Origin: Psococerastis gibbosa
Taxonomy: Eukaryota > Arthropoda > Insecta > Psocodea > Psocidae
Reading direction: 5' to 3'
NCBI GenBank assembly: GCA_963971405.1
Contig: OZ020491.1
Coordinates: forward strand, 20,516,855-20,580,854
DNA length: 64,000 bases
The translations under genes were made by a program, and so were the position numbers. Shown piece after piece: positions 17,517 through 60,861 of this stretch. How positions within the stretch are numbered: the stretch's first letter is position 1; each line of letters starts with the position of its first letter. The notes beneath the pieces were generated by a model. It had not been told where the DNA came from. It saw only the letters and a program-made list of their open reading frames with translations, and searched no databases.

Positions 17517-17605
17517 GGTCCCCCATTAATTCAATTCAGCTTTTGGGCCCTGAGTAACATAAAAGTTACAACATTTGTATTTATTTAATTTTAAGCCAGT
17601 TCATC

Positions 17606-17680
17606 ATGATACTAAAAGTTTCCTTATTAATGATTGGACTTATATCATTGGCTAAAACAACTGCATCAAAACGAAATCAG
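17606..17680 (+). CDS. Copy 3 exon 1, signal peptide
   Basis: 25 codons with the hydrophobic core LLMIGLISLA, donor gtacct, phase 0. About 14 of 20 aligned residues equal the first exon of the micro-exon gene at 31,308. Confidence 0.82.
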
Positions 17681-20600: not shown

Positions 20601-23600
20601 GGAGCACCTGACAGTGCTGACACTATACATTATTGACATTGCCAAAAATCTATCAGCATGAGCAAATACTTTCTGATTTGATTGAGGTTGGTAAGTTTGT
20701 GAGGCGGTTGTAGGAGAAGAGCATGGATAAAACAAGCCGAACCCTAGCTTTAAAAAATAGTTCTATTTTTTATGCACACTACAAGGCCGTTGATTCCGTT
20801 TGATTCCGGGTGGGGGGGGGGGGGGCTTATCGGGCTGCAGCCCCCCCCCGGAATCAAAAGTTGAGAATAAAATAAATCTAGTGTGGTATAACATCCTCAA
20901 CTTCCTCAGTAAATTATAAACTTTACTGCTGTTAAAATCGTAAAACCCCACTATTTCGGGCCTATTTTGTCAAAACAGTTCCCCCGGGGGGCCTCCGGCC
21001 CCCGCCCCTGACTGTAGCAATATAAATATGCAACAAATATCCCCCGCGGGGAAGACCACCGGACCCCCCTCTTGGGGTTAAATGCTATATATTATCTTTA
21101 TGTGTAAGCTTTGTAAAATCTTTACTTTACTGTTGGTAAAATGCGTATAACCCCACTGTTTTGCACTTATATTTTCAAATAATCCCTCCCCTCGGGTTAG
21201 ACCCCCAGGCCCCCCTCTTGGGGTTTGCCATTAGCTAAGTTCAATACTTTTCTACACTACTCAAAGAACAATAAAACTTAATCTTCTACTCATGAAAACG
21301 TTCTATACGGAGAAGACAATTTGGGTATTAAATTGTAATTTTTAATTAATTTATCATGAATGTAACAATTAATAGGCCCACCAATGGAATATTTTGATAA
21401 AATAAAATTACATAATATTGATGGATTAGGAAATATATATATTTTTTCAATATTTGAGGAGTTTTGTACTTCGGACATGAATCCTTCCGATGTTCGTAGA
21501 ATCACCAGCCTAAGCTATCATATATATAAGAGTAACACCATAACCTCTAAAGATACAATTGAATTCTCAAGAAAAAAATTTACACTAGATGGGATCACAA
21601 CACCCCCGAAAAAAAATCCTGGCTAAGGGCTTGGCACACTACTCGAATTAATAAGCCGATCAATTGAGACTATTGCTTCAATTCTGATACGTTATTTGTG
21701 AAAGGCAAAATCTTAAGGATGCGATAAGATACTTAGCCTATGAGCCTTGGTGAGATATGATGGTCCTATTTCTCGTTTCAGACAAACGTCAGCCAAACCG
21801 AATATTATTCGAAACATACGATGTTCTTCAAGAAACAAAGACAAGCCAATATTAGACGCTTATTAGACGCAGGAGAAAAGGCCCGCGGAGTGACAAGAAA
21901 GCTTATAAACGAATTTACCCCGATAGGTTAGTATTTCTTCATTTAGGCGCATATTCCACCGACCTGCTAGTGCTAAATACAAATACGGTGACGTGGTAGC
22001 AGACATTCAAGACTTAGGCGTGGTTTCCACCGACCTCGCATTGCAGAATTGATGGAAATGTTTATTTTCCTCTATGCCATAGTTAAAATTGATCAATGAT
22101 CATACAGTAAAATCACAAACTAAAATTAAAAAATGGCGCCATGGGATATGTTAAGTACAAACATTTTAATAGATTTCTATAAAAAGAAAAATTCTAATTT
22201 CCGTCAATGTCATTTGCATTCTGCAATGCGAGGTCGGTGGAAACCCCACCTAAGTGCTGAATGTCTGCTACGACGTCACCGTATTTGTATTTAGCACTAG
22301 CAGGTCGGTGGAATATGCGCCTTAACATTACAGTACCAGGTAGACCGGACATAAATATAGGCTGGTGTAGTGAAAATAGCCATCCCCAGTGGCGTCGCCA
22401 GAATTTGGTTTGGGAGGGGTCCAGTTTTCATCATGTTTGCCCACTTACGATAGGTTTTCGAATCGGGTGATGTTTCATTTGGCGCCCCCCCCCCCGGATT
22501 GTTTTTTAAAAGATAGGCCTGAAATTTTGATTTTGCAGACGATAACTTATTAACAAAACTGGAAAAAGGGGGACCGGGGTCTCCCCGTCGCATTTTGTTT
22601 GATAACTATCTAAAAAAATTGCTATTTTGCTATATTTTGGGGGGGGGGGGTGTTCCTGACCCCGCTGACCCCCCTATGGCTACGCCACTGGTCATCCCCC
22701 TCTTCTTTTAATGCCTCTTCTATCGAAGATTGGCATGGCAACTGGAAACTACTGCTATGAAAAAGGGCAGTCGAGCTCTTGGCAAACAACAGTCTCAGGT
22801 TTTTCAACCAGGATGCTTTTCTTCTGCCGGGAGCCCTCAGTCCTTCTATCTTCCCATGGATTATTACATGCAGAAGTTAATACTCTCCGTTCCTCATCAC
22901 AAGGCCGAAGTGTGTTAGTTTCCATTAAATAGGCTATTTAGGCTATAAAAAAATTATTTCATGAAGATATATTTCCTTACCCTACGGAGGAAATGGGCGA
23001 AATCGCTGGGAAAGTACGAGCGAATCCAAGTGTTCTAGATGGCATTTAAGGAGAGTAATAACTTATCTTCATACTTTACGCATGCTCGCTGATATTCAGT
23101 TTAAGCGGTATGGATGAATACAATACAATACAGCACAAATATTATAGTCCCCGACCAGCCAGAGCCCGACGAACCGTGTCACAAAATGCAGTAAGTAGCA
23201 AGTAAATAATAAAAATAATAAAAATGCCCCCCCCCCCATTATATTAAACCGTCCAGTTCCTCGTATCGGATCGTACTCAGTCAGGCTATGGAGAGTCACG
23301 TCAATAAATGGGTCCTTAAAATGTATCCTAAAATGGCTAATGCTAATGGCATATTATCATATACAAGCGGGCCTCCCTTACGCCTGCGTCTGCAGCTCAC
23401 CCCTTCGGAGCCTCGCATTAACGTGGTTCCATTGGGCATTACACAGGTCGCCCCTTCGGGGCTCGCATGACACTGCACGGAACAACCCAACGATTATCAA
23501 CTTCAATTTCCAGAATTTTTTAATTTTCCGCGCAATTTTTTAAATTTTTTCTGTCATAAAAACCTTCTCCTGACAGTAACAAACACAACAACAAAAAAAT

Positions 23601-26509
23601 AGTGAAATTGGTCCAGCCGTGACATAGGGAAATAGGGATTCATTTTTATATATAGTAGAGATAAACGGTGTTCAAGTGTCCGGTAGGAGTCAGCGGGGTC
23701 CGGACCCCCCCCCCCCCAAATTTAGCAAAATAGCAATTTTTTTTAGATATTTAGCTTTTAAAAAAAATCGCCGGGGAGACCCCGGTCCCCCTTATTCCAG
23801 TTTTGTTAATGAAGTTATCGTCTGCAAAACCAAATTTTTTTGCCGACAAACTATTTCAGGCCTATCTTTTAAAAACAATCCCCGGGTGAGCGCCAAATGA
23901 AACACCATCCCATTCGAAAACCTATTGTAAGCGGGCAAACTTTATGAAAACTGGACCCCCCAAAAAAAATTCTGGCTACGCCACTGGTCCCTAGAGTTGT
24001 TCAGGAGACACCTATACTAGGAACATCAAGCCCTCCCAACGAGCGTGTTTAGCTATGAAGAACGGTTTGTAGAGAACTACAATGTTTCCACGATTACGTC
24101 GTAAATTCGTATGTACTACCCGACTAGGATGGTACTTGGAAGACTTATAAACTCGGTGTTCCGCTTATGCAAGTTTTTGAATAACCCTTAAGTGTTGCAA
24201 GTGGCATCCTATCGTGATCTGCTTTATTCTTTTAGACGTCCAATCATTAGATGACAACACTGATGAATTCACATATAATTTAAAGCTTCCCAAGAACACC
24301 AGGCATGTGGAGTCGGCCGAGTTACGTTTCATGATAATTCCGGGGAGTTGCTCAAAAAATTCTCGACAAGTCACTTTCTCATTAATGGACCAGGTAAGTT
24401 TGATATTGTTTGCTAATTTTACAGCATACGTGGCCAGTCGAATTAGGACTACGTATATTTCAGGTAGCTCCAGGTAGCCTTTTCAGTTATCGGATGGGTC
24501 CAGACCAAAATCGGTTACCCTAACCTAACGGACACCTTTCATGCAAAAGTTTTATTTTCAAGGAATATGCTAAATAAGGATGGCTTACATAATGTATGAC
24601 GTAAATCAGAGGATATAGAAATATTAGGACTAGGCTATTTAACAAGGGGTTAGTTGGACTTATACATTGCCTGTGTGTGGTAATAGTCATTACAGGCATG
24701 GACCTCACAGTCATCGAACAATTAGGGCGAAGCCAAATGTCAGGAGAAGGGGGAGACGTTTCTGGAGTGGGTGCTTCTCCCATCATCAGGCTAAGTCCTG
24801 AGAAGGACTGATAATTTCTGGTCAATTGACTCATTGCTCTTATATTCTACTCTGAATTACTGAGTAAATCCGAACTACCGTTCTCCTGATTGAAATGCAA
24901 GCTCTCTTAACCACTCGACCGCTTCCCTCGCCAGAGTATACTAGTTTAAAACTTCTACTTGAACTTCACTTTTTTTCCTAACCAATGGCAACCATATCGG
25001 GTCTAATGTCAGGCTGGGCTGACTTTTAGGATCAGGATCAGTATTCAGGACCATGACTGTTGCTTCTTTTAGCTTCCTCTGCTTGAAACCTGTCTCCCTA
25101 AGAATGATCCTTGCTAATGGACTTAACGAGATTCGAACCCATCGTCTTAGTCACTACCCCTCTAGATCCTCAAATTTTGGTTATAACGGGCACCTACAAG
25201 TTAGTTTAATGCCAGTGTTATTTTATCTATGGGTACACCATATATAATGCTAAAATATAATAAATTTATGAGTTTGACTAATAAAGGAAAAGATTCTATT
25301 GTACTATGCTTCTGTAAACTTTTCTCATCAACATCATTATTTTCTCCCACTACCTTCAAGAGTGTTCAGTCCGTAGGAAATTGGCAGCCCAAAATTGAAC
25401 ACTTTTTATTTTTTATTTAATTAACTAAGCAAGTTATTAAAGATTTGGCTCATTTAAGTTGTAGAAAACTACTTCATGCATAATATAATAAGGTATACCG
25501 GTATTTAGTTTTCAAATTGTAGTTTTCTTTATAAAATCGATTATACGTGAAAAATTATTGTTTATAAAATATTATCATGTATATGAAAAAACTACTACTT
25601 TTTAAAACTCCTACTTTTTATTTCTATCGAGGAAATGCTTCTTTTCATGAATTCTACTCATTATTATATACAGGAAGAGGTGACATTGATGGTCGTGGAT
25701 GCCAATGAAGCTAGTTGGGACTCATTTTAACATCAACCTTTCCCTCAACTCCTTTATTTTCTCCTACTTTTTACTACTATCGAGGAAATGCTTCTTTTCG
25801 TGAATTCTATACTCATTATTATTTACAGGAAGAGGTGACATTGATGGTCGTGGATGCTAATGAAGCTAGCTAGGACTCATTTTAACATCAACCTTTCCCT
25901 CAACTCCTTTATTTTCTCCTACGTTTTACTTCTATCGAGGAAATGCTTCTTTTCGTTAATTCTACTCATTATTATTTACAGGAAGAGGTGACATTTGATG
26001 TGAATGACTGCGAGCCTCGTTGGGACTCAATACGCACTCAGAAACTAAAAATCAAAAGCCGAACTGCCTTCAAGGTACGTTGCATCGACTGCGCTGACCA
26101 AGATGTAACCTATTCGGCACCATACCTCAACATCATCACAACATCGAAACCAACTGCAACTGATATGATGAAGCGGGCTCCCCCTAAGAGGAAGCCAAAG
26201 CGCCCTACATACGAGTGTAGGCGTGACCCACTAAATTTTCATTTTAGCGACTTTAGATCGTACTCTCTGATAACTACACCATCTGAATTTGATATCGGTA
26301 TATGCGCAGGTCGGTGCAAACCGCCTTATCAAGCTTATAACACTCATACTATCCTACACTATTCACTGTACCGAAAAGGATTCACAAACAAGTTACCATG
26401 CTGTGTACCGCGTTTCTTGAATGATATAGTATACATGTACAAGAATGGAACAGAGTTAGTGGAAGGCGTGTTTGGAGAGGGATTAGCAGAATCTTGCGGG
26501 TGTCGCTGA
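17606..26509 (+). CDS. TGF-beta superfamily ligand-like gene, copy 3 (complete, five exons)
   Basis: Exons 17606-17680, 20163-20222, 21782-21926, 24236-24393 and 25982-26509 join to 966 nt (321 aa). The layout equals copy 2: signal peptide, 20-codon helix exon, SQTEYYSKH exon ending LINEFTPIG, arm exon (AELRFMIIPGSCS, QVTFSLMDQ), then a final exon with DCEPRW, VRCIDCADQD and APYLNIIT. A basic KRKPKR cleavage-site candidate precedes a mature domain with the seven cysteines (YEC, GIC, GRC, CC, CGC). The C-terminus CGCR is closer to canonical TGF-beta ligands than the CSCQ of copies 1 and 2. Two decayed duplicates of the last acceptor precede the real one. It is the most 3' of the three ligands. 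Confidence 0.88.
17731..17900 (+). repeat. Family I fragment (agagtgtacgtcccgtagg)
   Basis: Starts with agagtgtacgtcccgtagg, then the caagattttaa...tttggctcattt block typical of the family I foldback. It is truncated on the right. Confidence 0.5.
17912..18690. repeat. Family I foldback element, interrupted by a Harbinger-like MITE
   Basis: Left end ttaagagtgtac, right end tacactctta. The two halves are inverted copies (ggctcatttaaat... against its complement). The MITE at 18,278-18,666 sits inside, flanked by ATA on both sides. Confidence 0.65.
18278..18666. mobile_element. Family B foldback MITE, Harbinger-like
   Basis: 389 bp of near-palindrome running GGCGCCCATTCCACCGAC ... GGTCGGTGGAATGGGCGCC. 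It is flanked by ATA on both sides (18275-18277 and 18667-18669), consistent with a TWA target duplication. No coding capacity. Confidence 0.8.
18955..18980. repeat. (aat)n microsatellite
   Basis: Simple trinucleotide run of taataataat type. Confidence 0.7.
19116..19942 (+). mobile_element. Family A element
   Basis: ttgctttccaatttatacg start, (gtct)n tract, poly-C near 19,849-19,858 and an aaattggaaagcat end. It lacks the final ggaccggtt seen in other copies. It lies in intron 1 of ligand copy 3. Confidence 0.7.
20163..20222 (+). CDS. Copy 3 exon 2, prodomain helix
   Basis: 60 nt between ctttttacag and gtaagt. It encodes an amphipathic helix ending ILNVP, parallel to LLDVP in copy 2. Confidence 0.82.
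20800..21235. repeat. G/C-run repeat relic
   Basis: Alternating cccccgg, cgggg and 'actgctgttaaaat...aaccccactattt' blocks shared with 62,640-62,720. No coding content. Confidence 0.45.
21782..21926 (+). CDS. Copy 3 exon 3
   Basis: 145 nt, tcgtttcag acceptor and gttagt donor, phase 0 to 1. It starts TNVSQTEYYSKH and ends RKLINEFTPIG. Confidence 0.82.
21946..22321. mobile_element. Family B foldback MITE
   Basis: 376-bp near-palindrome GGCGCATATTCCACCGAC ... GGTCGGTGGAATATGCGCC with TTA on both flanks (21943-21945, 22322-22324). It lies just downstream of exon 3 of copy 3. Confidence 0.8.
22387..22690. mobile_element. hAT-like MITE (CAGTGGCGT ends)
   Basis: 304 bp with ends CAGTGGCGTCGCCA and TGGCTACGCCACTG as terminal inverted repeats. 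It contains poly-C and poly-G tracts. An 8-bp target duplication is not evident. Confidence 0.65.
23660..23990. mobile_element. hAT-like MITE, left end decayed
   Basis: The right end ctggctacgccactgg and the internal gttatcgtctgcaaaacc block match 22,387-22,690 and 655-1,030. The left end starts within gtcagcggggtccgg. Confidence 0.55.
24236..24393 (+). CDS. Copy 3 exon 4, arm-domain segment
   Basis: 158 nt, ttctttttag acceptor and gtaagt donor, phase 1 to 0. The same length as copy 2 exon 4, with DEFTYNLKLP and AELRFMIIPGSCS. Confidence 0.85.
25622..26001 (+). repeat. Tandem triplication of the copy 3 exon-5 acceptor region
   Basis: Three units with a period of about 154 bp. Each contains tctatcgaggaaatgcttc, an ...atttacag-like acceptor and the exon start gaagaggtgacatt. 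Exon-like starts are at 25674, 25829 and 25982. The first two hit in-frame stops after 18 and 14 codons and lack the conserved cysteine, so only the third is usable. Confidence 0.85.
25982..26509 (+). CDS. Copy 3 exon 5, prodomain end and cystine-knot domain
   Basis: Follows atttacag, opens GAA GAG GTG, and has 175 codons plus TGA. It holds prodomain cysteines (NDC, RCIDC), the KRKPKR patch, and the seven-cysteine mature domain with YKNGT. Confidence 0.88.
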   Translation, partial: EEVTFDVNDCEPRWDSIRTQKLKIKSRTAFKVRCIDCADQDVTYSAPYLNIITTSKPTATDMMKRAPPKRKPKRPTYECRRDPLNFHFSDFRSYSLITTPSEFDIGICAGRCKPPYQAYNTHTILHYSLYRKGFTNKLPCCVPRFLNDIVYMYKNGTELVEGVFGEGLAESCGCR

Positions 26510-30879: not shown

Positions 30880-31201
30880 TAACAGTCTCCCTTACTCCAT
30901 CACAAGGTATTTACGATCTTTCAAAGTTGGGGGGGGGGGGAGTCAAAAGCTCTGGAGCCTCTCTCGACCAACAAAATTCCGCGTTTAGGTCAGTATAGGC
31001 CTAGACATAAGCGAGCTTTTGAGAACATGCTGCATGCAATTCCAAAAGGTCACCATGCAAGGTCTCCACGCTAATTATACGACGGGCACTTCCTCATTTA
31101 CAGGACATTAAAACTGCAGCTCTAAGTTGACCGTATCGCAGCAATTACTGATACCACTACAACAGGAATTGAAAAAGTTATTCAGCATCTCAAAAAGTCT
31201 C

Positions 31202-31210
31202 TATATAAAG
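31202..31210 (+). promoter_or_regulatory. TATA box, micro-exon gene
   Basis: TATATAAAG, 106 bp before the ATG at 31308. Sequence and spacing are close to the TATA of ligand copy 3. Confidence 0.65.
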
Positions 31211-31307
31211 AGACTGCGTAATTAGATCCCCACCACTTCTAGCCATATATACTGTACGAAAGCTTGACAGTTAAACTATTTTCAAACTTTAAATTTAAAC
31301 GAAGTTA

Positions 31308-31382
31308 ATGATGAATCTAAAATTGAGTGTTCTAGTGATTGGCCTCATATCGTTGGCTATAGTAACTGCAGCAAAACAAAAG
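31308..31382 (+). CDS. Micro-exon gene exon 1, signal peptide
   Basis: 25 codons starting with two ATGs, core VLVIGLISLAIVTA, donor gtataa, phase 0. Homologous to exon 1 of ligand copy 3 (shared LK.S.L.IGLISLA..TA.K). Confidence 0.8.
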
Positions 31383-34300
31383 GTATAAAGTTTTAAACAT
31401 TTTCAGGCCAAGAGTTAAACAATAAGGATTTGTTCCATTAAAATCCAACCATGACTTTGACAAGATATTGTACTGTATATCCTACACAGCACATATGTAG
31501 CTAATAAACCGATAAACATTTTAAAATTATTAGCCTAAACATTTTTGGTTAGTTACTATTCATTAAGAACTTTTCATGGACCCATTTATAGTGGCCCATA
31601 GGTCGATTGCCAATGACCCCATGGAATTCGGGCATTACTTGCATTGTTTCCCTATGAATTTTTGGCCATTGACAAACTGGCATACGTTCTCGATGTCAAC
31701 CTACACCGGCTTCAAGCGATAATGCACAAGCTGACCATTAATGCAATGAAACAGGCGAAAGCATGACTTAACCAAGTACAGTACAGTCTTTTTTGTGCAA
31801 AAATTTTAAAAAAATTAAAATGCCTGGAAACAATTTAATTTTTAAAATATATAGTCTTGTAAATAATCAAAATACGTGCAGGGACATCATCTCTCTATCT
31901 ATCCTACTAGGTGTACCTATAACTTTAAATCTGAGGAGTGTCCAGCCCGTAGGAAATTGGCAGCCCGTAATTTAATACTTTTTATTTCTTATTAAATTAA
32001 CTGAGCATGTTATTAAAGATTTGGCTCATCAAAGTTGTAGCAAAGTTGTAGAAGACTACTTCATGCATAATATTATAAGATATTTTTAATTTTCGAAATT
32101 GTAGCTTTTTCAGAAACATGCAAATATTGTATAAACAATAACTTTTCACGTATTATAGATTTTATAAAAAAAAACTACAATTTCGAAAACTATAATTACC
32201 TTATTATATGATGGATGAAGTAGTCTTCTACCACTTGGATGAGCCATATCTTTAATAACATGCTTAGTTAATTAAATAATAAATAAAAAGTGTTAAATTT
32301 CGGGCTGCCACTTTCCTACGGGCTGTACACTCTTAATTTTAATTATTATTTCTAATTTTCCTAACTGTTGTTTCTATTTCCAGAGAGCAAGAATTGGTCA
32401 GCATCAAGTAAGTACAAAAGAGAAAAAAAAACGTTAATTCGTCTTGTTTTGAATTAGTAGGCTATTACATGTAAAAAAAAAATAATAATAATAATAATAA
32501 TTGCAGATTATACCTCAATCAGTCACTTGAAATTTTACATTCAAACCACTGCCATTGCTAAGTAATACGTACTGCAAGTTGTATAGGCCCAGTAATGCAT
32601 TAGTAATTCACAGTACATAAGCTCCCACTTATACAATATAGGCGTTGTTTTACATATGAAAGCCAGTTACAGGAATATTTGTAAAAGTTAATAATTTATA
32701 TGTTTATATAATAAATATAATTTATATAATATACATATAATTTTTGCTTTCCAATTTATACGTAGTATAAGGAAAGGTTTGTGATGGTCGAAATTTTCGA
32801 TTCCGAGATTTTACCGGATTTACACGTTTTGAGGTCCCAGGAACCAAAAAAAGTGGTTTTTACGAAATGTCTGTCTGTCGGTGCATCGATTTCCGGGCAA
32901 ACTACTTGGTCGATTTAGATGAAATTTAGCATGTAGGTTTACAAAAATCATACCTCGGGACCATTTTTTGCTTTCCAATTTATACGTAGTATAAGGAAAG
33001 CTTTGTGATGGTCGAAATTTTCGATTCCGAGATTTCAACGGACTTACACGTTTTGAGGTCCCAGGAACCCAAAAAAGTGGTTTTTACGAAATGTCTGTCT
33101 GTCTGTCTGTGCATCGATTTCCGGGCAAACTACTCGGTCGATTTTGATGAAATTCGGCATGTAGGTTCACAAAAATCATACCTCGAGACCATTTTTTTAT
33201 TTGGGGCTAACTCAATTTGGGGGGGGGGGGGGTTTCATTCTCAAAAAACTCCAAAAAAACTAAAAAAAAAAATTATTTCTCAAAAACGGCTCCAACGATT
33301 TCTTTTAAATTCACATATATTCTAGTCCTTCTTAATGTTGATAAAATGCGGGGGGTCGCTTACCCCTTGATAGTTTGCTTCTGGGGGTAAAAAAATAAAA
33401 ATAACTTAATTTTAATGAAAAATGACTAAAAAATAATATTTCTGTGAAACTTTTCTATCGATGATTTCTACATTCAGGCATGTTTTAGGTGTTAAGTTGA
33501 GTAACGAAACCGGACAGTTGGCTTGCTCAAAAACCTATTTGCTTTTGCGCAAAAAATTTTTTTTAAAAAAATGATAGAAACTTCACGCTGAAATGCATTG
33601 CCTGCCCTGCCATTATTACTGTGTTGTAATGTGTTTTAAATATATTGAGGTTACCTCACCTCCAGTGACGTCAGGTGGACACCCCCCCCCCCCCCGAGAT
33701 ATCCGAAATTTAACCGTAGGAAAATTATTTACCATGAAATTATTCATTTTCTCTCCCTACTAATTGATAAATTGGAAAGCATGTTCGAGTAAACTCGGAC
33801 CGGTTCTTTTATTTTGGGCCAATTCAATTTGGGGGGTTTTATTCTCAAAAAACTCCAAAAAACGTCTAAAAAAATTATTTCCCAAAAACGGCTCAAACGA
33901 TTTCTTTTAAATTCTCATATATTGTAATCGTTATTAATGTTGACAAAATGCGAGGGGTCGCTTGCCCCTTGATAATTTGCTTCTGGGGGTAAAAAAATTA
34001 AAATAAGTAAATTTTAATGAAAAATTACTAAAAAATAATTTTTCTGCGAAACCTTTCTATCGATGATTTCTACCTTCAGGCATGTTTTAGGTGTTAAATT
34101 GAGTAACGAAACCGGATAGGTTGCTTTCCCAAAAAAATATTTGGTTTTGCACAAAAATTTATTTTTTGAAAAAATTCGCGCTCAAATGCATTGCATGCCC
34201 CGTCATTCTTGCAGTGTGGTAATTAATGTGTTGGTCTTATCTATCTAGAAGTTATCTCACTTCAAGTGACGTCAGGTGGACAACCCCCCCCCCCCGAGAT

Positions 34301-37300
34301 TTCGGAAATTTAACCACTGGAAAATTATTTACCATGAACTTACTCATTTTCTAATGTCTCTACTAATGTTGATAAATTGGAAAGCATGTTCGAGTAAACT
34401 CGGACCGGTTCTTTATAATATTATGTATAATTTCATGAAGTGAGCAAATTTACGATGTAGTAGTCACGTCATTTGTATAATATACTGCACATCTTCGATA
34501 ATTTTTCACAAATCTCAAATTATGTTTACAATTTCATACAGTATGCAACTGCAAAATACCGTAAGCACAATACAAATTATTTAATACTAAATCATTATTA
34601 ATTAGGCTACATTAAATTTAATCTGTTTTATGTTCAGTTCCATCGACCCTCATCCATTGCAGCACCACCTATAGTAAGTACATAAGCAAGACTCTTAAAT
34701 AATTATGTCTTGACATTAATACAATATACTGTAGTTCTTTGATAATATTTCACAAATCTCAAATTAAATTTTCCATTTCATACAGTATGCAATGCAAAAT
34801 ACTGTAAGCACGATTCAGTTCTTATAAATTATTTAACAACAAAAAATTATTATTAATAATAACCAAAATTAGAGAATATGGAAAAAACTGGGCTTGGCGG
34901 GATTCGAACCCACGATCTACGCCTAACCAGGGCGTCGTCTGGACGCTATGACGACGCCCCGGTTAGGCGTAGATCGTTCGAATCCCGCCAAGCCCAGTTT
35001 TTTCCATATCCTGTATGTGCAATGTCGGTTATAACGAGGAGGTTACATCTTCAACCAAAGTTAATTTTATGTCAGTGTTATATATACCATATAGTCTAAT
35101 ACTACAATGCATACAATAACCTTAAATTTAATTTGTTTTATGTTCAGTTCCAACCACCCTCATCAGGAATTAATCCGGGACCACCTGAAGTAAGTAGCCT
35201 ATGGGCAATACTTTTAAACCTATGCAGTAAAACAATAACCTAATTTTACCCCGTTTCCCCACAGAAAAAAAATCTAAGATTTTTCTTTAGAACGATACCC
35301 GGAATGTTTATGTTTAAGTATATGATTTAAATCTGTATTTAAGTATTACACTTTCCAATTTTTCTTTTTCCCTTATTTATTGAATCGCTCCCATATTCGA
35401 GTGTGTAATAGAGGGGATTAGGCACGGTACATTGTCACAGTAACTAAGTTCAAGTGCCCAGCTTTTGAACCGCCCAGTGCATTGCAAAACCTGCTGTATT
35501 ACTAGTATTACTGTATTCAAGGCCGCAGCCAAGGTGGGGTTCAAACCCCCCCCCCCTCCCGAAATTAAATGGCTTGATACTAACTTAGATAGAATCGGAT
35601 TTTGAGAGGAAAAAAAACACTATGTAGTAGTAGAATGGTTGGACAAAGTCCCAGGCCACGGTGTGGGCCCGTAGGACAGACTATGTAATATCCAATGAAA
35701 TTTCTGAACCCCCCCCCCCCCCCCGAAAAAAAATCCTGGCTACGGCCTTGATTGTTTCTTTTCTCTTTTCACTTTTCTTGATGCGAACTGTACTAACTAC
35801 AATGGGTTTAGGCTTGTCCTTATTTTTTGAATCGATTCTAAAGCAGCATTCTTCAATATCCACATTTGCCAAAACAACGCCCAGCTCTTTTGTAACACAT
35901 TGTATTTTCAGCTGTAATAAATCATTGTCTTCGTCTTCACTTTGCGGCAGGTTGTGGATTTCAATAATTTTCACACGGGCTTGCTGTTGAAGGTCTTGGA
36001 GCTCGTTTTCTAATCTCTTTATTTTATCATCCCTCTTTACTAAGGCACTATATACCCGGGCATTGTCATCCGCCATTTTGTATCCTATAATTCCTATATG
36101 GTAAGTATTATAAGAAAGTAAAATATTAAAAATAACGAAAACACGTTTTAGTATTTTTTTTATTCAGCATTTCCCTAATTGGTAGAACGTTTGTTTAAAA
36201 TAATAATAAATAAACAACGATAAATTTCTAAAAATAAATAGGTAAACACCCAATGCTTTGCTTATACACCAAACTTAAAATTGATACAAAATGGCGGTTG
36301 ACAATACCTGTCTAATATAGACTCTTATATCTCTATATACTCTTTACCAGTTCCTTTGCCATTGTATTCATGAAACATTCTAGGAGTTTGCTCATTCTGC
36401 CTTGCCACTGTAATAGCTTGTCTATCTTTTCTTCCGTAGATATTTGTTCGTTTTCCTCACGCTCTGATGCAGACCCATTTCTGTTTTGCATCTTTAGACT
36501 TTGCTTTGTACGTTCTCATGGATAGATTTGAACATTCTAGATGATACGCACCGCCGCACTTTCCTTAGGCGCCCATTCCACCGACCGGCTAGGGCTATTT
36601 ACAAAAACGGCGACGTGGTTGCAGACATTGAAGAATTAGGTGGCGATTCCACCGACCTCGCATTCCAGAATGCAAATGACATTGACGGAAATTAGAATTT
36701 TTCTTTTTATAGAAATCTATTAAAATGTTTGTACTTAACATATCCCATGACGCCATTTTTTAATTTAAGTTTGTTTGCTTGTGATTTTACTGTATGATCA
36801 TTGATCAATTTTAACTATGGCATAGAGGAAAATAAACATTTCCGTCAATTCTGCAATGCGAGGTCAGTGGAAACGCCACCTAAGTCTTGAATGTCTGCTA
36901 CCACCTCACCGTTTTTGTAAATAGCCCTAGCCGGTCGGTGGAATGGGCGCCATAGCATCGTACTAGGATGGCCTCATCATGGATTCCATCTTTACATCGC
37001 CTACACTTCATTGTATAGGCAGTTATTGTGTAGTGTCGGTTAAAATTGAAGTTGAAATTGCTGCTTTTCACGTAAGTTTAATTTACAATACCTTTACGGT
37101 TGAGAATTTCACTCCTTACTTCACTGTATACTGTTTCGGCGAAAAAATATATAGTCTACAAAACGTATGACTTGCACACAGCGGCCATTTTTTATAATAA
37201 TAATAATGTATAGGTACCGTAATAATAATAAATATTTAATGTAATAAGATACTTTTTTCCAGTTATTCACTCCTTCGATTTACGATGAAGAATATGAGGA

Positions 37301-40300
37301 GGATGAAGATCGATATGTTCCTCCGATTGGATCGGGTCCTTTTGAAGTATGTAATACAATAAGATATAATATTATTATTTAGGCTCAAACCGCTTAAATT
37401 TACTATTTAAATAATGAACTCATGCTGGGCCAAAATTACCATAGGTTTAACGTGTACGGCATGTTTATTGTACTGATTACTTGGGATGCATTGTATACAG
37501 TCCAACTTGGTTAAAACAGTTTCTTGTATAAGATTTAAACCAGTACTGTATAATATACGTGTACGGCATGTTAATTGTTATACTGAATACGTTGGATACA
37601 TTTTACAGTATAATTTGGTTAGTACTACAAAGTTAAAACCGTTTTTTTTTTGGGGGTACTAAGATTTAAACAGTACTGTATAGTATACAGCAGTACATGA
37701 CTACGCATAACTTTAACGAGTCGCAATATAATCATTGTTTTAATTTCATTTTTTAACAGGCCGAATTGACTCCTGCTGAGCTTGCAGTAAGTAAAAATTG
37801 AAAAATTCAAGTCATAGGCATAAGATAATAAAACACAATATTAACTTAATAGACAACCTTATTGTCCTTATGTAAGGATCAAATCTAAAAAAAATAAGAC
37901 CAAAATGAACGAGAGACTGAGAGTGGGCTCTGCTAACCTTTCTAGACTCTTGAGTGTAGACTGCTATTCCGATATATCTCCAAATCGTCGTGTTACGCCT
38001 CTTCTTGGCCTAGGCTCAGGGCTGAGGACAGACGACAAACTTCTGCTGTGTAAATGTTATATCGGTCGTCACGTATGTCCTTAGCCATAATGTATAAATC
38101 ACGAACCTTGGGTTCGAAGAAGTATAGAGTCTAGAGAGAGTGTGGAGAGTCTAGAGAGAGTCCAGAGTGAGAACTACGTAGACAGAACTGATTCACTGTG
38201 TGAGTTGATACACGGTGCAAGTAGGAGTAAGCTCCTATGGATGTATGAGTAAGTACGTTATCATGTAGCCCTTATGTAACTAAGTTGCCCCCCCCCCCCA
38301 AAATTCATTATGTTGTCCCTTGTCCCTTAAGTCCTTCCTAAGTTATTATGTAGTATTAATGTTAAGTGTATTAATATAATATAAGGTATTTGGTACTTTG
38401 GTACCATCCTATAAGCTTATATATAATTCCCCTCTCATAAGTCAACTCTGAATACTCTAATCTATAGAAGGTCCCAATTAGTGGTATTCGGAGTGTGACA
38501 CGTCGCTAAACCCAAGTTCAATCAATCAAATTTGAAATTTTGTCAGTCATACCATAAGAGTCAGACCACTACTGAAATAGTAATGTTTTTAGGCGGCTAT
38601 TCATTCCATTTGTCAATATTCCGTCATTTGTGCATAAATAATCGATGAGATTTTGGTTTTTATTAGGCCTATATGTTTTTAGTACCTTTAGTATAGAGTA
38701 AAAAAAACTCATCAATTATTGAAGCACAAATGACGGATTATTGACAAGTGGAATAGCCGCCTTAGCAAGAGATTAGACTAACCAAATTATTAATTTTATT
38801 GTTTTCCATTCCTCGCAATTGGGTACCTAATCATACACTATTCTCGTAGTTTTTTAAACCCCGACATGATTAACAGTACGAGTAATATACTGTGTGTAGG
38901 GTATTAATAAATAATTCTCATGTCTACAGAAATACTGCAAGTTTGTACCATTCGACAGTGTTTGTGGAAAAAACAAGAAGGTAATTATGTGACTAAAATC
39001 AATTCATTAGCTATAAATTTGTACGTTAGGTACTCGTAGGCTACATGTTTATTGCTACAAGACTAATAAGTAAAAAAACGTATGAAACAAACAAGCATAT
39101 TTCAAGCCAAAAGGTATGGTGCGGTTCTATAGTAAATATCATATCATATCAACAATTCCCAACCCCAAATGTTCCTGAGAATGTGCTTGGGGAGGGAACA
39201 TACCATAATAGACTAAATTCAATTCCATAACAATAACAAATGGATAGGATATTGCAAAAAAGGAGAAATAGATAAGTAGTTAATTCAGAAGATTACATGA
39301 TATACCTATTTGCTAATATTTGGATTTGAGTGATTACTTTTAGGGTGTACAGCCCGAAATTTAATAGGACGTTAATGCACGTTAATTAAGATGGCCGCAT
39401 TTTTGCCTGCTCCATTTAGTTTATTTAATAACGACGGCAGTTACTCTTCTAATGAACAAACCAGCACAGTGCCATCTGCATAATAACGCACATTGCTGAC
39501 AAGTTCTCCATTGACTTGCGTCTTCTGCACGTTAATTAAGATGGCCGCATTTTTGCCTGCTCCATTCAGTTTATTTAATAACGACTGCAGTTACTCTTCT
39601 AATGAACAAACCAGCACAGTGCCATCTGCATAATAACGCACATTGCTGACAAGTTCTTCACTGACAACAATGCCTGTCATCATCCGCTCAGCATACACGT
39701 TGAACAGGGTAACTGACGACAGTAACACACATCCCTGCCTGACGCCCCGCTTAATGAGTATTTGATAGGAGTTAACTGTTTAATTATCGTATCATTCGGT
39801 GCACAGAGCGTCTACACAAGTTTCCACTAGAATAGGTAATCAATCAGCCATACGACAATTACAAAATATCGCATGGTTTTTTGCTTTCAGAGGCTTAGCG
39901 GTCCCATTAACATTAACGCACACAGGCGATTCATCGCAAAAGTAAGTAAAACTATGAAATACGGTCACAGCTTCTTTTTGAAATTTAGACTTTATTTGCC
40001 ACACCGCCCCCCCCCCCCCTCTCCCTCCTTTGGACGCCCGTGATCACCTATTGTAGGTTTTTCAAAAATTCAAAATAAGGCTAGCCTACATTAAAGTAAC
40101 TTGTCGACCTTATCGCCTTAATAAATGTTTTTCCGGGGTATATTTGAAAACATTGGGGATCTCGCCAAGAGAATTTTTTTAAAATTACTACACATCAAGA
40201 AACCATAGATTTTTTGGCCCACTTTTTTAATAAAGTAACCACGCAATCGAAGTAGGGAGGTTTGACGCATTTTGCAAGCAGGTCTCCCCCGAAGAAAAAT

Positions 40301-41442
40301 TTTGAAAAAATAGGTCAGAAATATTGGGGTTTTAATAAGCATTTTGAGTAATGTATTTTTGTGAATGTACTCGGTCAATATGTTGATTTTCTTCATGTAA
40401 AATAAGCAAACTAAGAATTAATGTCCCTTTCATCATTGTGAATACTATGACTTTAGCCTCCAAAACGTCTTTGTCACCAGAAATCCTGGGGGGGGGGGCT
40501 ACGGGTGGACCCCTAGGACCCCCCTATTTACGCCAATGAAAGGAAATTATATAAGTTTTGGCACAGGATCTAGCCATTGCTCATTTACACATTGTATGGC
40601 CGGCAATACAAATAAATTAAACCCTGTCCGTTATTTTATTTTAATTGCGTTATTATTTTTCTTCCAGATATTTTGCATTATATTTCCATCCATCACCTAC
40701 TGCAGTCCCCACGTAAGCAAGTTTTTAAATGTGTGAATTCACAGACGTGTGCGGTAGACTAATTCTTGTTGGTTAAAAATGTTTCCGTTGTGTCCACAAT
40801 AAGGGCAGATTTAAAAAGAAAAGAAATTACGACTAAGGTAGGCTACTTGGCACCATACTGGCCAGAGTTCTTGGCTAGTTCACGCATCAGCTGCTAGATG
40901 ACAGTTACCAGTTTTTAAAAAAAAAACTACATCATGATTCTACAGTAGGCCTACATGGGTATTAATGTGGACCCTACAGATCTAGTTTGCGGTCGGAGAC
41001 GTGTCGCAACTCGACACAAGTACCTATTAGGTGACTTAGTGAGGCGATTGAAGAGGTTAATCGGATACATTCATTTTGAATTGTTTGTATGCGATTTAAC
41101 CTTTTTTTTAAATAAAAAAATAAATAAAGTTTACTTCCTAATTGTTTAAAATATTAAAATGCATAGTAAATTATCAAACCAGTAAGGTATATACAAGATC
41201 AAACTGAAATTGTAAGTGATACCAACTTATTAATTTTTAATTTTCCCTTAAAATTGCGCCCTTTGGACTTGGTCATGACCTAGGTTGTCCTAATGGGAAA
41301 TCCGTATCAGCGGATGGCCTTGGTCAGTTTATGACAGATATGTCTATAATGGGGCCATTGGTATAGTTTTAGAAGATTGAAAAGTCTGAGAATTTTTATG
41401 TAATAATGGAAATATCATTTCTTACAGGAAAAACCGTTCTAA
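31308..41442 (+). CDS. Secreted micro-exon gene (ten phase-0 exons, 149 aa predicted)
   Basis: Proposed exons: 31308-31382, 32384-32407, 34638-34673, 35148-35189, 37263-37346, 37760-37786, 38930-38980, 39891-39941, 40668-40712 and 41428-41442. Every coding length is a multiple of three, every junction is phase 0, and every acceptor and donor is canonical. Most acceptors have good pyrimidine tracts and most donors read gtaagt. The product is a signal peptide (core VLVIGLISLA), a short basic piece, two Pro/Ser-rich repeats (FHRPSS, FQPPSS), an acidic stretch (EEYEEDED), then two C-x3-P-x4-C segments (Cys 99/108 and 133/142). It ends EKPF-stop. No homologue is recognised. The architecture resembles schistosome micro-exon genes; a role as a secreted variable peptide is inference. 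Additional or skipped exons are possible. Confidence 0.72.
31933..32334. repeat. Family I foldback element
   Basis: Starts aggagtgtccagcccgtagg and ends with its complement cctacgggctgtacactct. The interior is inverted around tttataaaa. It sits in intron 1 of the micro-exon gene. Confidence 0.7.
32384..32407 (+). CDS. Micro-exon gene exon 2 (24 nt)
   Basis: Between tttctatttccag and gtaagt; encodes RARIGQHQ. Confidence 0.65.
32744..34410 (+). mobile_element. Family A element split by another family A copy
   Basis: The host copy consists of 32,744-32,966 and 33,807-34,410. The left part stops in the poly-T after cctcgggacca and the right part resumes with ttttattttgggcc, the next block of the family. 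The inserted copy is 32,967-33,806. Confidence 0.7.
32967..33806 (+). mobile_element. Family A element, inserted copy
   Basis: Full-length copy from tgctttccaatttatacg to actcggaccggtt, with (gtct)n and two homopolymer tracts. Nested in an older family A copy. Confidence 0.7.
34638..34673 (+). CDS. Micro-exon gene exon 3 (36 nt)
   Basis: Between tttatgttcag and gtaagt; encodes FHRPSSIAAPPI. Duplicated relative of exon 4. Confidence 0.7.
34876..35009. repeat. Palindrome of two tRNA-like 3' halves
   Basis: 134 bp. The left arm is the inverted and the right arm the direct copy of a tRNA-like 3' half (ggcgggattcgaac, gttcgaatcccgcc). Relatives with a fuller tRNA shape are at 60,645 and 61,092. 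Followed by a SINE body at 35,028-35,100. Confidence 0.7.
35148..35189 (+). CDS. Micro-exon gene exon 4 (42 nt)
   Basis: Between tttatgttcag and gtaagt; encodes FQPPSSGINPGPPE. Lies exactly 510 bp after exon 3 with duplicated flanks. Confidence 0.7.
35518..35750. mobile_element. MITE (CAAGGCCG ends) inserted in LINE ORF1
   Basis: 233 bp, with inverted ends CAAGGCCGCAGCC / TGGCTACGGCCTTG and paired poly-C runs. Its right end abuts the truncated LINE ORF1 on the minus strand. Confidence 0.65.
35751..36076 (-). mobile_element. LINE ORF1-like fragment
   Basis: The minus frame from ATG 36076 reads MADDNARVYSAL, then a coiled-coil stretch (KIKRLENELQDLQQQ), then IEIHNLP ... DIEECCFRI ... KPKPIVVSTVRI. 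This resembles the coiled-coil plus RNA-binding ORF1 proteins of L1/Tx1-type non-LTR elements. It is interrupted by the MITE at 35,750. The upstream 36,085-36,325 segment is repeated at 53,096-53,310 and looks like its leader. Confidence 0.65.
36568..36951. mobile_element. Family B foldback MITE
   Basis: 384-bp palindrome GGCGCCCATTCC ... GGAATGGGCGCC with TTA left and ATA right. It lies in intron 4 of the micro-exon gene. Confidence 0.78.
37263..37346 (+). CDS. Micro-exon gene exon 5 (84 nt)
   Basis: Acceptor acttttttccag, donor gtatgt. The acidic exon, with YDEEYEEDEDRY and a Pro/Gly end. Confidence 0.72.
37760..37786 (+). CDS. Micro-exon gene exon 6 (27 nt)
   Basis: Acceptor cattttttaacag, donor gtaagt; encodes AELTPAELA. 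Confidence 0.7.
37991..38500. mobile_element. Solo LTR with 5-bp target duplication
   Basis: 510 bp starting TGTTACGCC and ending GTGTGACA (TG...CA). The direct repeat CGTCG is on both flanks (37986-37990 and 38501-38505). Internal TATA-like tgtataaatc and an agagtctagagagag tandem are present. No internal coding region remains. Probably from a Ty3/gypsy-type element; the class is inferred only from size and target length. Confidence 0.75.
38592..38761. mobile_element. Short GGCGGCTATTC palindromic MITE
   Basis: 170 bp, GGCGGCTATTCATTCCA ... gtggaatagCCGCC with TTA on both flanks. Its end is the same as 26,855-27,589. Confidence 0.75.
38930..38980 (+). CDS. Micro-exon gene exon 7 (51 nt)
   Basis: Acceptor ctcatgtctacag, donor gtaatt. 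Encodes a C-x3-P-x4-C unit (CKFVPFDSVC) followed by a basic tail. Confidence 0.72.
39377..39760 (-). mobile_element. LINE reverse transcriptase fragment with internal duplication
   Basis: The minus frame shows GVRQGCVL and RYYADGTVL, the positions of the fingers/palm motif and the YADD box in non-LTR reverse transcriptases; here the catalytic box is altered. A 150-bp unit is repeated in tandem (39377-39526 and from 39527). Confidence 0.65.
39891..39941 (+). CDS. Micro-exon gene exon 8 (51 nt)
   Basis: Acceptor ttttgctttcag, donor gtaagt; encodes RLSGPININAHRRFIAK, basic and Cys-free. Confidence 0.7.
40000..40530. repeat. G/C-run MITE relics
   Basis: Poly-C at about 40,007-40,019, poly-G at about 40,489-40,498 and the gcattttg...tttgaaaaaataggtc internal block seen at 16,800-17,000. 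Confidence 0.45.
40668..40712 (+). CDS. Micro-exon gene exon 9 (45 nt)
   Basis: Acceptor tttttcttccag, donor gtaagc. A second C-x3-P-x4-C unit (CIIFPSITYC). Confidence 0.7.
41428..41442 (+). CDS. Micro-exon gene exon 10, terminal coding part
   Basis: Acceptor catttcttacag, then four codons (EKPF) and TAA. A candidate AATAAA lies at 41,656-41,661. Confidence 0.6.
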   Translation, partial: EKPF

Positions 41443-41450
41443 CATTCACT

Positions 41451-41738
41451 CTAATTTATTGCCCCACCCTCTAATATTTCGGTCACGAAAAAGAAATCCG
41501 CTTCGGGCACCAGTTTGGGTGCCGGTACATATTGACCCAACAGACAATTAGCCCGTAATTTGATTAGGGCTGCAGCATTATTTAAACTTGCAGTGGGTAA
41601 ATTGGCTATTTTCTCAAACTGTTCAGGACGTAATATGCCGGGGTTGATTTTAATTAATAAATAATATTGGTAAAATTGTTTTAGAACCGTCATGATCATG
41701 CCTATGACGGCATCAGAACTAGATACTTCGAGTCGCAC
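41451..41738 (-). CDS. Unidentified 95-aa reading frame
   Basis: Continuous frame on the strand opposite the micro-exon gene 3' region, with a hydrophobic first half (VIGMIMTVLKQFYQYY) and no recognised motif. It could be a mobile-element remnant or chance. I see no splice or promoter support. Confidence 0.2.
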   Translation of the reverse strand: MRLEVSSSDAVIGMIMTVLKQFYQYYLLIKINPGILRPEQFEKIANLPTASLNNAAALIKLRANCLLGQYVPAPKLVPEADFFFVTEILEGGAIN

Positions 41739-42203: not shown

Positions 42204-42399
42204 GCTGCTGCAGGCAAATCTGATTTTATTTATTTTATAGCTGGACAGAAGGAAATATCTCAATCAAAGGAATATAGGTAGATACCGTACTTAAATTTTG
42301 GCTTATGCCTCACGCGTTGTTTCCCATAATCTAATCAGAAAGATAATATGTAAATGAAAGAAATATAACACAGTGCATTTAACGGTTTTCAATTCCTAG

Positions 42400-42525
42400 T
42401 CAGACAGAATATTATGTACATATTATTGAGTATTTTTTTTCAGCACAAAAAGGAGATATAAATGCGGGGAGCTTTAAAAAAAAATTGGGTACCTCCACGA
42501 AAAAATGTTCTCATATTCGCAGGTA
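42400..42525 (+). pseudogene. Relic of ligand exon 3
   Basis: tcagacagaatattat (SQTEYY) follows an ag dinucleotide, and INAG lies further on, as in exon 3 of copy 2. The rest diverges and the conserved VPRNLINEF end is missing. A gtaaat follows at 42,522. Likely a decayed duplicate downstream of the micro-exon gene. Confidence 0.4.
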
Positions 42526-48200: not shown

Positions 48201-51200
48201 GTTTGCTTAGGAAGTAAGGCACTAAATACCCGGGTATTGTCATTGTTTGTCATATTATTGAGGCTTATGGAAAAATCAACGCTTTGATATCTTAGCAACT
48301 GGTGCTGCCATCTATAAAATGACGTCACAAATGAACCTCATACATACCATATAGGAATTATTATAGGATACAAAATGGCGGATGACTGTTGGAATACAAA
48401 CCTAAGATCACGTTTGGAAAGTGCGCCAAAAGTATCAGTAGAATACTTAACGTGGAAGAAGAAATGATGACACGGAAGTCGGTACTTTCTGTTTTGAACT
48501 TGTTTTGGATAAAAGGATGAATTTTTTGATTATGAAGAAAAATAAAGTTATTATATATTATTAATGTATTATTAATGAATATAGTCATGGTTAAGAAGAA
48601 AGAACACTTTTTAGTATAATATTCAACAGGTTATGGGCCCAGAACCCAGACACCCGATCAGCTAAGTATAATTTAATATACATGAAAATGATGAAGCCAC
48701 ATGGTGGGTATGTGCTTAACCCTTTTAATGGGTCAACGAATTTCAGTAATTGGAAATTCAGAATGGAACAAATTCTGGAGGAGAATGGTGTTATGGATGT
48801 TGTCAACAATTTAGAAAAAGACAAAAATAAAGAAGCAAAGGCACGGAACTTGATTGTGCAAGGACTGGATGACCTAATACTTGAAAGTGTTATGGGGAAA
48901 TCAACGCCACACGAAATGTGGGAAACCTTAAAAACTACATACGAGCAAAAAGGCTTGCAAGGCCAATTAACTTATAGAAGGAAGCTTCATACGGTGAAAA
49001 TGGATGAATGTAATGATATGACTACACATCTTCACAAGATAGAAGAAAGTGTAAGGCTCTTGAAGGAAGCAGGAGGCAAGATAGAGGAAGACGAAATAAT
49101 TTGTGTTATTTTAAATAGTTTGCCGGAGCAATATCAAACAATAGTAACAGTTATTGAAAATACAACGCCTCAAATAAAGTTAGAGAAAGTAAAGAATAAA
49201 TTAAGAATTAAATACGAAAAGGTGAAAGATCATGGAACAGAGACTGTAAGTAATTCTAATGCATTTAATTGTTGGACCTGTAATGGACCACATTTAGCAC
49301 GTGATTGTCCGATAAATAAGAATCAGATGCAAAGTTTTCAAAGAGGTGGAAATATAAATAGACCGTTTCGTGGTAGAGGGCGTCGAAATTTTAGAAGTAG
49401 AGGAAGTAACCGTGGGAGTTACGCAAAGTCAAGTGTATCTGATGGCATAAGCTTTATAGCATTGAATAATAAATGTATGATAGCTAAAGAAGAAGACAAT
49501 GTGACATTTTTACTAGATTCTGGTAGTACAGACCACTTGGTTGGTGAGGTGTATGAACAGCTGATGACAAATATAATAAAATTACCACAACCAATAGAAA
49601 TTGTTATTGCTAATGGTCAAAAACTTATAGCAAGAAAGAAAGGGAATCTGAAATTAGAATATAATGGAAGAATGATTGATTTACAGGCAATTGTAGTGAA
49701 TGGTTTATCGCACAATTTATTATCTGTTAACCAACTAACCAGAAAGGGAATTAAAGTTATTTTTAGCCATGATGAAGCACAGCTACTGAGTGAATCAGTT
49801 AATTTCAAATTTAAGAAGATTGGAAAAGTTTATAAGATGGTATTTCAGCAACCAAGCAAAAAGCAGTCAGAGAAGTACAATAATATGCAGGTAAATGCTA
49901 ATTTTACGCTGAAGCGCAGTAAATACAATGAACAGGAAGCAAGTTTGTGGCACAAACGCATGGGACATTTAAATAGACGCAGTATGAAGTTATTAAATCT
50001 ACCCGTTGAGGAGAAGGTATGTGAGACATGTATTAAAGGGAAGATGACACGTTCACCATTTACTTCCTGTGCGAAGCCGAGATCATCACGAATTGGTGAA
50101 TTATTACACACTGACTTGTGTGGACCTATAACTCCACCCACGAGGAATGGAGAAAAATATTTTCAGGTCATTGTGGATGATTATTCTCATTTTTTAGTTA
50201 TGTACCTACTTAAAAATAAAAGTGAAGCAGCCGGAAATGTTATAGACTTTATAAAAAAGTTAGAAGCTAAACACAACACAAGAGTACATCGCATAAGATG
50301 CGACCAAGGCAGAGAGTTTATTAATAAAACGCTGTTGACGTTTGCAAGTCGACATGGAATTAATATACAAAAGAATATTGCTTATTCTAGTGCTCAAAAT
50401 GGAGTCAGCGAGAGATATAATAGATTAGTGCTTGATGTAAGCAGAACTTTAATGTGTGAAACTGATTTAGAAAAAGAATTTTGGGGTGATGCTGTACTTA
50501 CCGCCGCTTACCTATTAAATCGGCGACCCTCGAGAGTAATAAATAATGAGACACCAGCAAGTATCTGGCATGGTACTACTGATCTTAAGAAAATACGTAT
50601 ATTTGGATGTAAATGTTACTACACACCGCTACCAAGAAAAAATAAATTAGACGAAAGAGGAAAAGAAGCACGGTTTATCGGCTACACTGACAATGGTTGG
50701 CGATTGTGGGACATCAGAGAGAAAAAATTAATTTCTGCTCGGGATGTTAAGTTTATAGAAGAAGAAAAGAAGATTAATCCATTAATCATAATAGCGCCTA
50801 CTCATGGTGAAAAGGAGAAATCTCCTGAATTAAGTGAAGACGATGAAGATGTAAGCCAGAAATACAGCCCAGGAAGTGACGATGAATATGTACGTCATTC
50901 GAGTGGATATAGCAAGCAGAATACGCCAGAGAGATGTCAAAAGCAAGATGCAAATTCAGATAGTGAAGTTTATCAGCGATCAAGGAGAAATGTCGTGATA
51001 CCACGCAAGTATGACGAATACGAATTATATATGGCATGCAATGCAGTAATTTATGACATACCATACGCAGTTCAAGATTTACCTGATAGAGAAGACTCAA
51101 AAAAATGGTACGATGCAATGAAAAGGGAAATGCATTCAATAGAAAAGAATAAAACATGGATTCCAGTGAAAAAGCCAGAAAATAAGAAAATTATTGATAT

Positions 51201-60840: not shown

Positions 60841-60861
60841 TTTTTATTTATCCTCTAATTT

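Follow-up and report, generated by a model that had tools for sequence, protein, structure and literature searches.

In schistosomes, the micro-exon genes (MEG) are described as possessing a signal peptide and 10–20 tiny exons, mostly multiples of three, with introns of 0.1–5 kb and secreted products; most of the exons are 15 bp long, and the signal peptide is followed by the motif FL..F-X6-W-p-K/H/R (PMC10526429). In aphids, the KQY/KHI genes are reported to combine a common secretory-signal cassette with novel coding parts made of miniature exons, KQY1a of this multigene family having 37 exons, 33 of which are of 15 bp or less (PMC7495047). The bicycle genes of aphids are fast evolving genes for secreted proteins with paired Cys motifs, and consist of many small exons of the same phase (PMC9168663, PMC13041983), which is almost always phase 2 (PMC9168663). 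The antifreeze glycoprotein (AFGP) gene derived from trypsinogen retained the old signal-peptide exon, the coding part being replaced and grown from an amplified 9-bp segment (PMC9122973). Here we analyze a 64-kb stretch of the genome of the psocid Psococerastis gibbosa (contig OZ020491.1, positions 20,516,855–20,580,854), hereafter the window, in which a predicted micro-exon gene occupies positions 31308–41442 of the forward strand, downstream of an array of TGF-beta-like genes. Among the titles listed by literature searches, no micro-exon families beyond MEG, bicycle and KQY/KHI were noticed, and a search of the literature on TGF-beta clusters gave nothing recognised as matching the present arrangement.

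The sequence-only reading, by which this locus had been singled out, claimed ten phase-0 exons preceded by a TATA box and signal peptide, and all these elements were located, the exons with canonical GT/AG borders throughout. The TATA box TATATAAA (31202–31209, as all positions below on the forward strand unless stated otherwise) lies 106 nt upstream of the first ATG. Exon 1 (31308–31382, 75 nt), with an ATGATG start and a phase-0 donor gtataa, reads MMNLKLSVLVIGLISLAIVTAAKQK and contains the predicted signal peptide MMNLKLSVLVIGLISLAIVTA, the cleavage site of which was placed by eye. Exon 2 (32384–32407, 24 nt) encodes RARIGQHQ, exon 3 (34638–34673, 36 nt) FHRPSSIAAPPI, and exon 4 (35148–35189, 42 nt), a tandem duplicate of exon 3, encodes FQPPSSGINPGPPE; these are followed by exon 5 (37263–37346, 84 nt) with the acidic sequence LFTPSIYDEEYEEDEDRYVPPIGSGPFE, exon 6 (37760–37786, 27 nt, AELTPAELA), exon 7 (38930–38980, 51 nt, KYCKFVPFDSVCGKNKK) with the pattern C-x3-P-x4-C, exon 8 (39891–39941, 51 nt, RLSGPININAHRRFIAK) and exon 9 (40668–40712, 45 nt, IFCIIFPSITYCSPH) with the same pattern for the second time. 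Exons 2–9 were all recovered by the rule-based scan described below. The terminal exon 10 (41428–41442, 15 nt) adds EKPF and a stop codon, and a candidate polyadenylation signal AATAAA is found at 41656–41661. Every exon is a multiple of three in length, and the ten exons joined make up 450 nt and encode 149 amino acids in one frame; the nine introns, of 413–2230 nt, are all in phase 0, and G+C content amounts to 0.42 in the coding sequence vs 0.35 in the introns.

The product is expected to enter the secretory pathway and would lose about 21 residues there; the remaining protein of about 128 residues includes 18 Pro and 4 Cys, lacks Trp, and is composed of a Pro-rich N-terminal third, an acidic middle encoded by exon 5 and a more basic C-terminal third, with two C-x3-P-x4-C loops. 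In 200,000 composition shuffles, equally spaced cysteines had a frequency of 1.6% and the full pattern one of 0.03%, both being post hoc figures, as the pattern was spotted before being tested. Basic sites are situated at the junctions of exons 1/2 (KQK|R) and 7/8 (KK|R), where proprotein cleavage is plausible; HRR is also present. Profiles of Pfam and NCBIfam gave no match to the 149-residue product, so that no Cys-knot ligand was recognised in it, and the best PDB match was of chance level (E 0.35). A search of the organism's own 409-Mb genome (68 contigs) with the product returned six matches, all of them being the gene's own exons (4, 5, 1, 7, 8 and 9). Apparently, the gene is single copy at the sensitivity of this search, which left unreported exons 2, 3, 6 and 10 even at home, as well as the signal exon at 17.6 kb considered below, and which a diverged relative could escape.

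With the schistosome MEG the gene has in common the signal peptide, the short exons (15–84 nt for the ten predicted here) in multiples of three and the size of introns. Unlike in MEG, only one of the ten exons, the last, has 15 nt, the mature product has no Trp and therefore lacks the Trp-containing motif, and exon 1 has its homologue in a TGF-beta-like gene; MEG membership was rejected on the absence of the motif and of the 15-bp majority, the comparison drawn by the sequence-only reading with schistosome MEG thus being supported for the layout and not for membership. The aphid KQY genes are the nearest system in concept, combining a secretory cassette with new miniature exons; unlike them, the present gene has ten exons, one of them of 15 nt, is apparently single copy, has a signal peptide without KQY (by eye), and its likely cassette donor, a growth-factor gene, is visible next door. 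Bicycle identity was rejected as well: the internal exons are in phase 0 in eight cases of eight, and the published bicycle classifier, computed with its printed coefficients, gave eta −33.5 (p ~3e-15), p becoming 0.94 were the same exons all in phase 2 (PMC9168663). In the comparison with the CYC-motif and saposin-like features of bicycle proteins, the product showed four Cys in two C-x8-C pairs. Unlike in AFGP, the new part consists of a chain of phase-0 micro-exons. In the accessible parts of the works compared, on MEG, bicycle, KQY and AFGP, no growth-factor gene figures as a cassette donor. The gene is convergent in structure with the MEG, bicycle and KQY families, and not a member of any of them. 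Vertebrate SCPP genes (enamel, casein), which serve mineralisation and belong to the SPARCL1 lineage, also have exclusively phase-0 introns, short exons and a signal peptide.

The exon chain was assessed with a scan, the rule of which was fixed and applied without using the exon list of the sequence-only reading: a YAG acceptor with at least 10 pyrimidines of 15, a donor with no more than one mismatch to GTAAGT, a length of 12–120 nt and an open phase-0 frame. Nine non-overlapping candidates were obtained in 31383–41427, eight of them coinciding exactly with exons 2–9. The ninth (34786–34803) was rejected as an exon, being situated inside a tandem duplication where its twin has no matching donor. 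The antisense strand of the same span yielded no candidates, the remaining forward strand yielded 8 in 54 kb (including two 60-nt p1 exons of TGF-beta-like genes and one place within a last exon of such a gene), and the remaining reverse strand 12. Dinucleotide shuffles of the span (n = 500) contained 1.4 candidates on average and 6 at most. At seven threshold settings of seven, the span exceeded the rest of either strand in candidates per 10 kb, the strongest contrast being 5 vs 0.19 and the weakest 13 vs 5.2 (forward) and 7.4 (reverse). Exact GTAAGT sites close a relaxed phase-0 micro-exon in 8 cases of 27 on the forward strand and in 2 of 16 on the reverse one; the eight comprise five exons of the sequence-only reading, one p1 exon, one site overlapping the end of the ligand exon of the first TGF-beta-like copy, and the stretch 41685–41738. 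The exon chain is real as sequence, well beyond chance, the splicing itself being predicted.

The origin of the 5′ end of the gene is indicated by its similarity to the third TGF-beta-like copy. A tblastn search with exon 1 disclosed another signal exon, at 17603–17680 of the window, with 62% identity; the exon 17606–17680 (MILKVSLLMIGLISLAKTTASKRNQ) was assigned to copy 3, since its position and phase fit and the next exon of that copy starts at 20163. The Smith-Waterman alignment of 31190–31385 with 17495–17683, the latter comprising the TATA region (TATA at 17507), 5′ untranslated region (5′UTR), signal exon and donor of copy 3, begins 12 nt upstream of the TATA box and ends within the first bases of the donor, keeps the TATA boxes and the donors of both genes in register and scores 95, compared with a mean of 26 and a maximum of 53 in 500 shuffles. 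The blastn core, which includes the 5′UTR, is 94 bp long with 73% identity (E 3e-11 pairwise, 9e-10 against the window). The TATA box together with the 12 nt preceding it (31190–31209, 20 nt) agrees with copy 3 at 17 positions, which none of 300 shuffles reached (maximum 16), the next best of the six TATATAAA sites on the forward strand agreeing at 13 of 20. The likeness ceases outside this unit, with Smith-Waterman scores of 25 vs 22 in shuffles above the promoter and 39 vs 37 in intron 1. The profile built of the signal exons of copies 2 and 3 matched exon 1 at E 4.6e-5, the next match over 26.5–48.6 kb being at 0.97. A scan for signal-bearing first exons (hydrophobic, with a phase-0 donor) over 0.2–42 kb of the forward strand found five places: 7378, 17606 and 31308, belonging to copy 2, copy 3 and the micro-exon gene, respectively, and opening three successive units in one direction, and also 21082 and 40596, which have no gene assignment. 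Between the signal exons of the micro-exon gene and copy 3, dN equals 0.28 and dS 0.54. Judging by these alignments, promoter, 5′UTR and signal exon of the micro-exon gene are homologous to those of copy 3. The sequence-only reading was right in placing the gene next to a TGF-beta-like cluster, but missed that its promoter and signal exon are homologous to those of the neighbouring gene.

The interpretation of the shared first exon as a dispersed repeat was rejected, as the best other site in the window scored 41, versus 95, with the unit of the micro-exon gene as query. A genome-wide search gave no second site for this exon, although its reach was limited, the copy of 73% identity at 17.6 kb likewise having escaped it. 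Searching the genome with 31200–31900 returned 41 other matches among those listed (of 2041 candidates), and all of them started beyond exon 1, in intron 1. Intron 1 carries, at 31540–31800, a repeat widespread in the genome, to which those listed matches belong.

The array upstream consists of three TGF-beta-like ligand genes arranged head to tail at 36–26509, the exon set of each (signal, p1, p2, p3, ligand) being complete or partial. The last exon of copy 1, with the ligand domain (1569–2090), has its best PDB matches among the BMP, GDF8 and GDF15 type, ahead of TGF-beta2/3, and the p2 exon of this copy was found 6 kb upstream of the window. Copy 2 has a predicted signal exon at 7378–7455 (MQLKLIILVSYLVLATVAGRKHSKHE) and a last exon with the ligand domain at 12024–12533. 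In copy 3 the signal exon is followed by the prodomain exons p1 (20163–20222, 60 nt, phase 0/0), p2 (21782–21926, ending in phase 1) and p3 (24236–24393), and by the last exon with the ligand domain (25982–26509); the intron phases of copies 2 and 3 are alike (0,0,1,0). A tandem repeat of about 155 bp (2.5 copies, 25608–26000) duplicates the acceptor and first codons of the ligand exon of copy 3, thereby creating spare acceptors.

The span 26.5–48.6 kb was searched with exon profiles of copies 2 and 3. The p2 profile found a possible, borderline relic of this prodomain exon (SQTEYY...) at 42398–42469, about 1 kb past the stop codon of the micro-exon gene, with E 0.0038, the next match being at 0.5. 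Within the relic, 18 consecutive nucleotides are identical to copy 2 with the codon frame preserved, a length not reached in 1000 shuffles (maximum 16); the relic is suggestive of a decayed growth-factor unit at this place. Inside the gene, none of the non-signal exon profiles of TGF-beta-like genes found a match; the possibility that the micro-exons are degenerate TGF-beta exons was rejected, there being no DNA or profile similarity after exon 1. No further TGF-beta-like exon was found in about 19 kb downstream of the window.

Part of the new coding sequence can be traced to a duplication within the gene. Exons 3 and 4 are shown by their alignment to stem from tandem duplication of an exon together with its upstream intron, the unit being about 244 bp long: unit A (34463–34706) contains exon 3 and unit B (34707–35230, outer limit approximate) exon 4. 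Unit B is split by a tRNA-like repeat (~34859–35093), which entered the second copy later. Exon 4 is two codons longer than exon 3, and the splice sites are kept in both. In a codon alignment made by hand, the two differ at nine nucleotides, eight in residue-changing codons and one silent (dN 0.36, dS 0.17, a comparison resting on these nine substitutions). An excess of dN over dS in exons 3/4 and of dS over dN in the signal exon is expected for a conserved secretory start before a fast-changing product.

Considering these data, we propose, with a probability of about 0.6, that the micro-exon gene is the fourth and last unit of the head-to-tail TGF-beta-like array, which kept the secretory start and gained phase-0 micro-exons. 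Promoter, 5′UTR and signal-peptide exon of a TGF-beta-like gene would have been duplicated, the homology with copy 3 marking this step; the growth-factor exons would have been lost or never copied, the possible prodomain relic just downstream being suggestive in this respect; and new coding sequence would have been built up of phase-0 micro-exons following a secretory start already in place, with tandem duplication as the source of at least one of them (exons 3/4). As all internal exons are in phase 0, they could be added, lost or skipped without a frameshift, which would explain the growth of the gene and would allow isoforms; that exons are actually skipped and peptide variants produced from the locus is speculation. 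Expression similar to that of the donor gene would be expected, because the core promoter is common to both. A more specific version, in which the gene is newborn beside its parent, a TGF-beta-like copy, duplicated head to tail, having kept the promoter and signal exon while its growth-factor exons decayed and micro-exons, now encoding a fast-changing 128-aa protein, were recruited or created, appears to us tentative, with chances somewhat short of even.

Several observations weigh against this reading, in addition to the small number of substitutions behind the rates of exons 3/4. With the unit of copy 3 as query, other places in the window score up to 56, a 48-bp match of 81% identity at 12934–12977 is also present in the window blastn, and the global MAFFT alignment leaves the two TATA boxes out of register. 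The use of the 17606 exon by copy 3 is itself a prediction. The signal exon of copy 2 displays no detectable DNA homology to that of copy 3 or of the micro-exon gene (at the protein level, 11 of the 22 positions aligned with exon 1 agree, a match without significance at E 0.9), and for this reason the direction of duplication is only inferred by parsimony. The relic drops to E 0.028 with a three-copy p2 profile, an unrelated p1 match elsewhere being at 0.04; when aligned with gaps it scores 36, below the 39 attained by shuffles of other exons; the p1, p3 and ligand profiles gave no match over 26.5–48.6 kb. Finally, the donor of exon 1, GTATAA, is a poor match, and GTAACT at 31362 offers an in-frame alternative, which the scan for signal-bearing first exons credits to the gene instead of the end at 31382.

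Among the rival explanations, an older independent secreted micro-exon gene that exchanged no more than the promoter and first exon with the TGF-beta-like neighbour is unlikely, though the least so. It would agree with the lack of homology found between exons 2–10 and TGF-beta exons and with the deviating signal exon of copy 2; at the same time it requires a precise exon swap, the head-to-tail starts at 7378, 17606 and 31308 fit a tandem array, a possible p2 relic lies downstream, and no other copy of the gene was found in the genome, within the limited sensitivity of that search. Rather doubtful is the view of the product as a precursor of disulphide-bridged, neuropeptide-like signalling peptides, exons 7 and 9 each giving one C-x8-C cyclic peptide. 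Elevenin is a known disulphide neuropeptide, and the two equal C-x3-P-x4-C loops, rare in shuffles, together with the basic sites KQKR, KKR and HRR speak for this view; its weakness is that no mature peptide is repeated, no Gly directly precedes a dibasic site, the Cys pattern was noticed first and tested after, and no Pfam or NCBIfam profile matched.

It is improbable that the exons are a fortuitous series of splice-like sites, or belong to a dead gene, downstream of a TGF-beta-like promoter that was duplicated. The weak donor of exon 1 and the nearby possible TGF exon relic, which suggests decay, speak for such an explanation, as does the openness of most single exons in another frame: the +1 frame is also open in 8 of the 10 exons taken singly. 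The RNY index shows no preference for frame 0. Read jointly, the exons contain no internal stops in the chosen frame vs 9 and 10 in the other two, eight of the nine falling in exon 1, so that the frame assignment rests on exon 1 and the joint reading, because most single short exons are open in +1. None of the 500 shuffles reached eight or nine candidates, the difference in length between exons 3 and 4 is exactly two codons, with the sites kept in both, and the signal exon, as noted, has a dN below dS relative to copy 3, all of which speaks against chance or death of the gene. Phase 0 is common in the locus and not universal, as it was seen by eye in 4 of 7 neighbouring introns (0,0,1,0 in copy 3 and 0,1,1 in an ANGEL-like gene). 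Still less probable is a salivary or gland effector diversified against a host, like aphid KQY/bicycle or schistosome MEG: the architecture of a signal exon plus a chain of tiny exons is the same, exons 3/4 change fast, and the KQY genes are described as a common secretory cassette with miniature exons, but the gene is single copy at the sensitivity of the search, as opposed to multigene effector families, the phase rule of bicycle fails and the MEG motif is absent.

The ends of the proposed fourth unit may vary. An uncertain candidate for an alternative phase-0 exon, NRHDHAYDGIRTRYFESH, is situated at 41685–41738, with a perfect GTAAGT donor and a weak acceptor, and its possible partner is a candidate terminal exon, LDRRKYLNQRNIGRYRT, at 42241–42294, with a good acceptor and beyond the AATAAA; the short terminal exon 10 could give way to this other 3′ end. 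The open frame of exon 9 continues upstream as far as an ATG at 40596 with a hydrophobic stretch (40596–40712), and a TATA-like site lies 48 nt before that ATG; an alternative start inside the gene at 40596 is conceivable.

Other elements of the window are as follows. The tRNA-like repeats, at 34859–35093 (in the intron before exon 4) and at 60553–61193, gave two tRNA-Thr GGT calls and one weak Rfam tRNA, and occur partly as inverted pairs. The intron between exons 4 and 5 contains an open frame of 160 amino acids on the reverse strand (35681–36163), by eye of the retroelement ORF1 type, and stretches near it recur at 48340–48386 and 53095–53304. A Copia-type LTR retrotransposon at 48595–52623 has a long gag-pol frame with one stop before the last part. 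The gene at 54492–57297 on the reverse strand is presumably related to ANGEL (CCR4-type endonuclease); one of its exons matches Exo_endo_phos weakly, at E 2.7e-4, short of the curated cut-off. Vertebrate TGFB genes are also located near ANGEL genes.

Rapid sequence change makes the origins of secreted micro-exon genes difficult to follow. In P. gibbosa, a probable parent is still recognisable in the neighbouring gene by the promoter and the signal exon, and comparison with sister species could reveal the order of birth, the gain of exons and selection. If the proposed origin is true, it would provide a concrete route for the birth of effector-type micro-exon genes, with a signalling growth factor as the cassette donor, and a growth-factor locus would prove to have given rise to an unrelated secreted protein controlled by its promoter.

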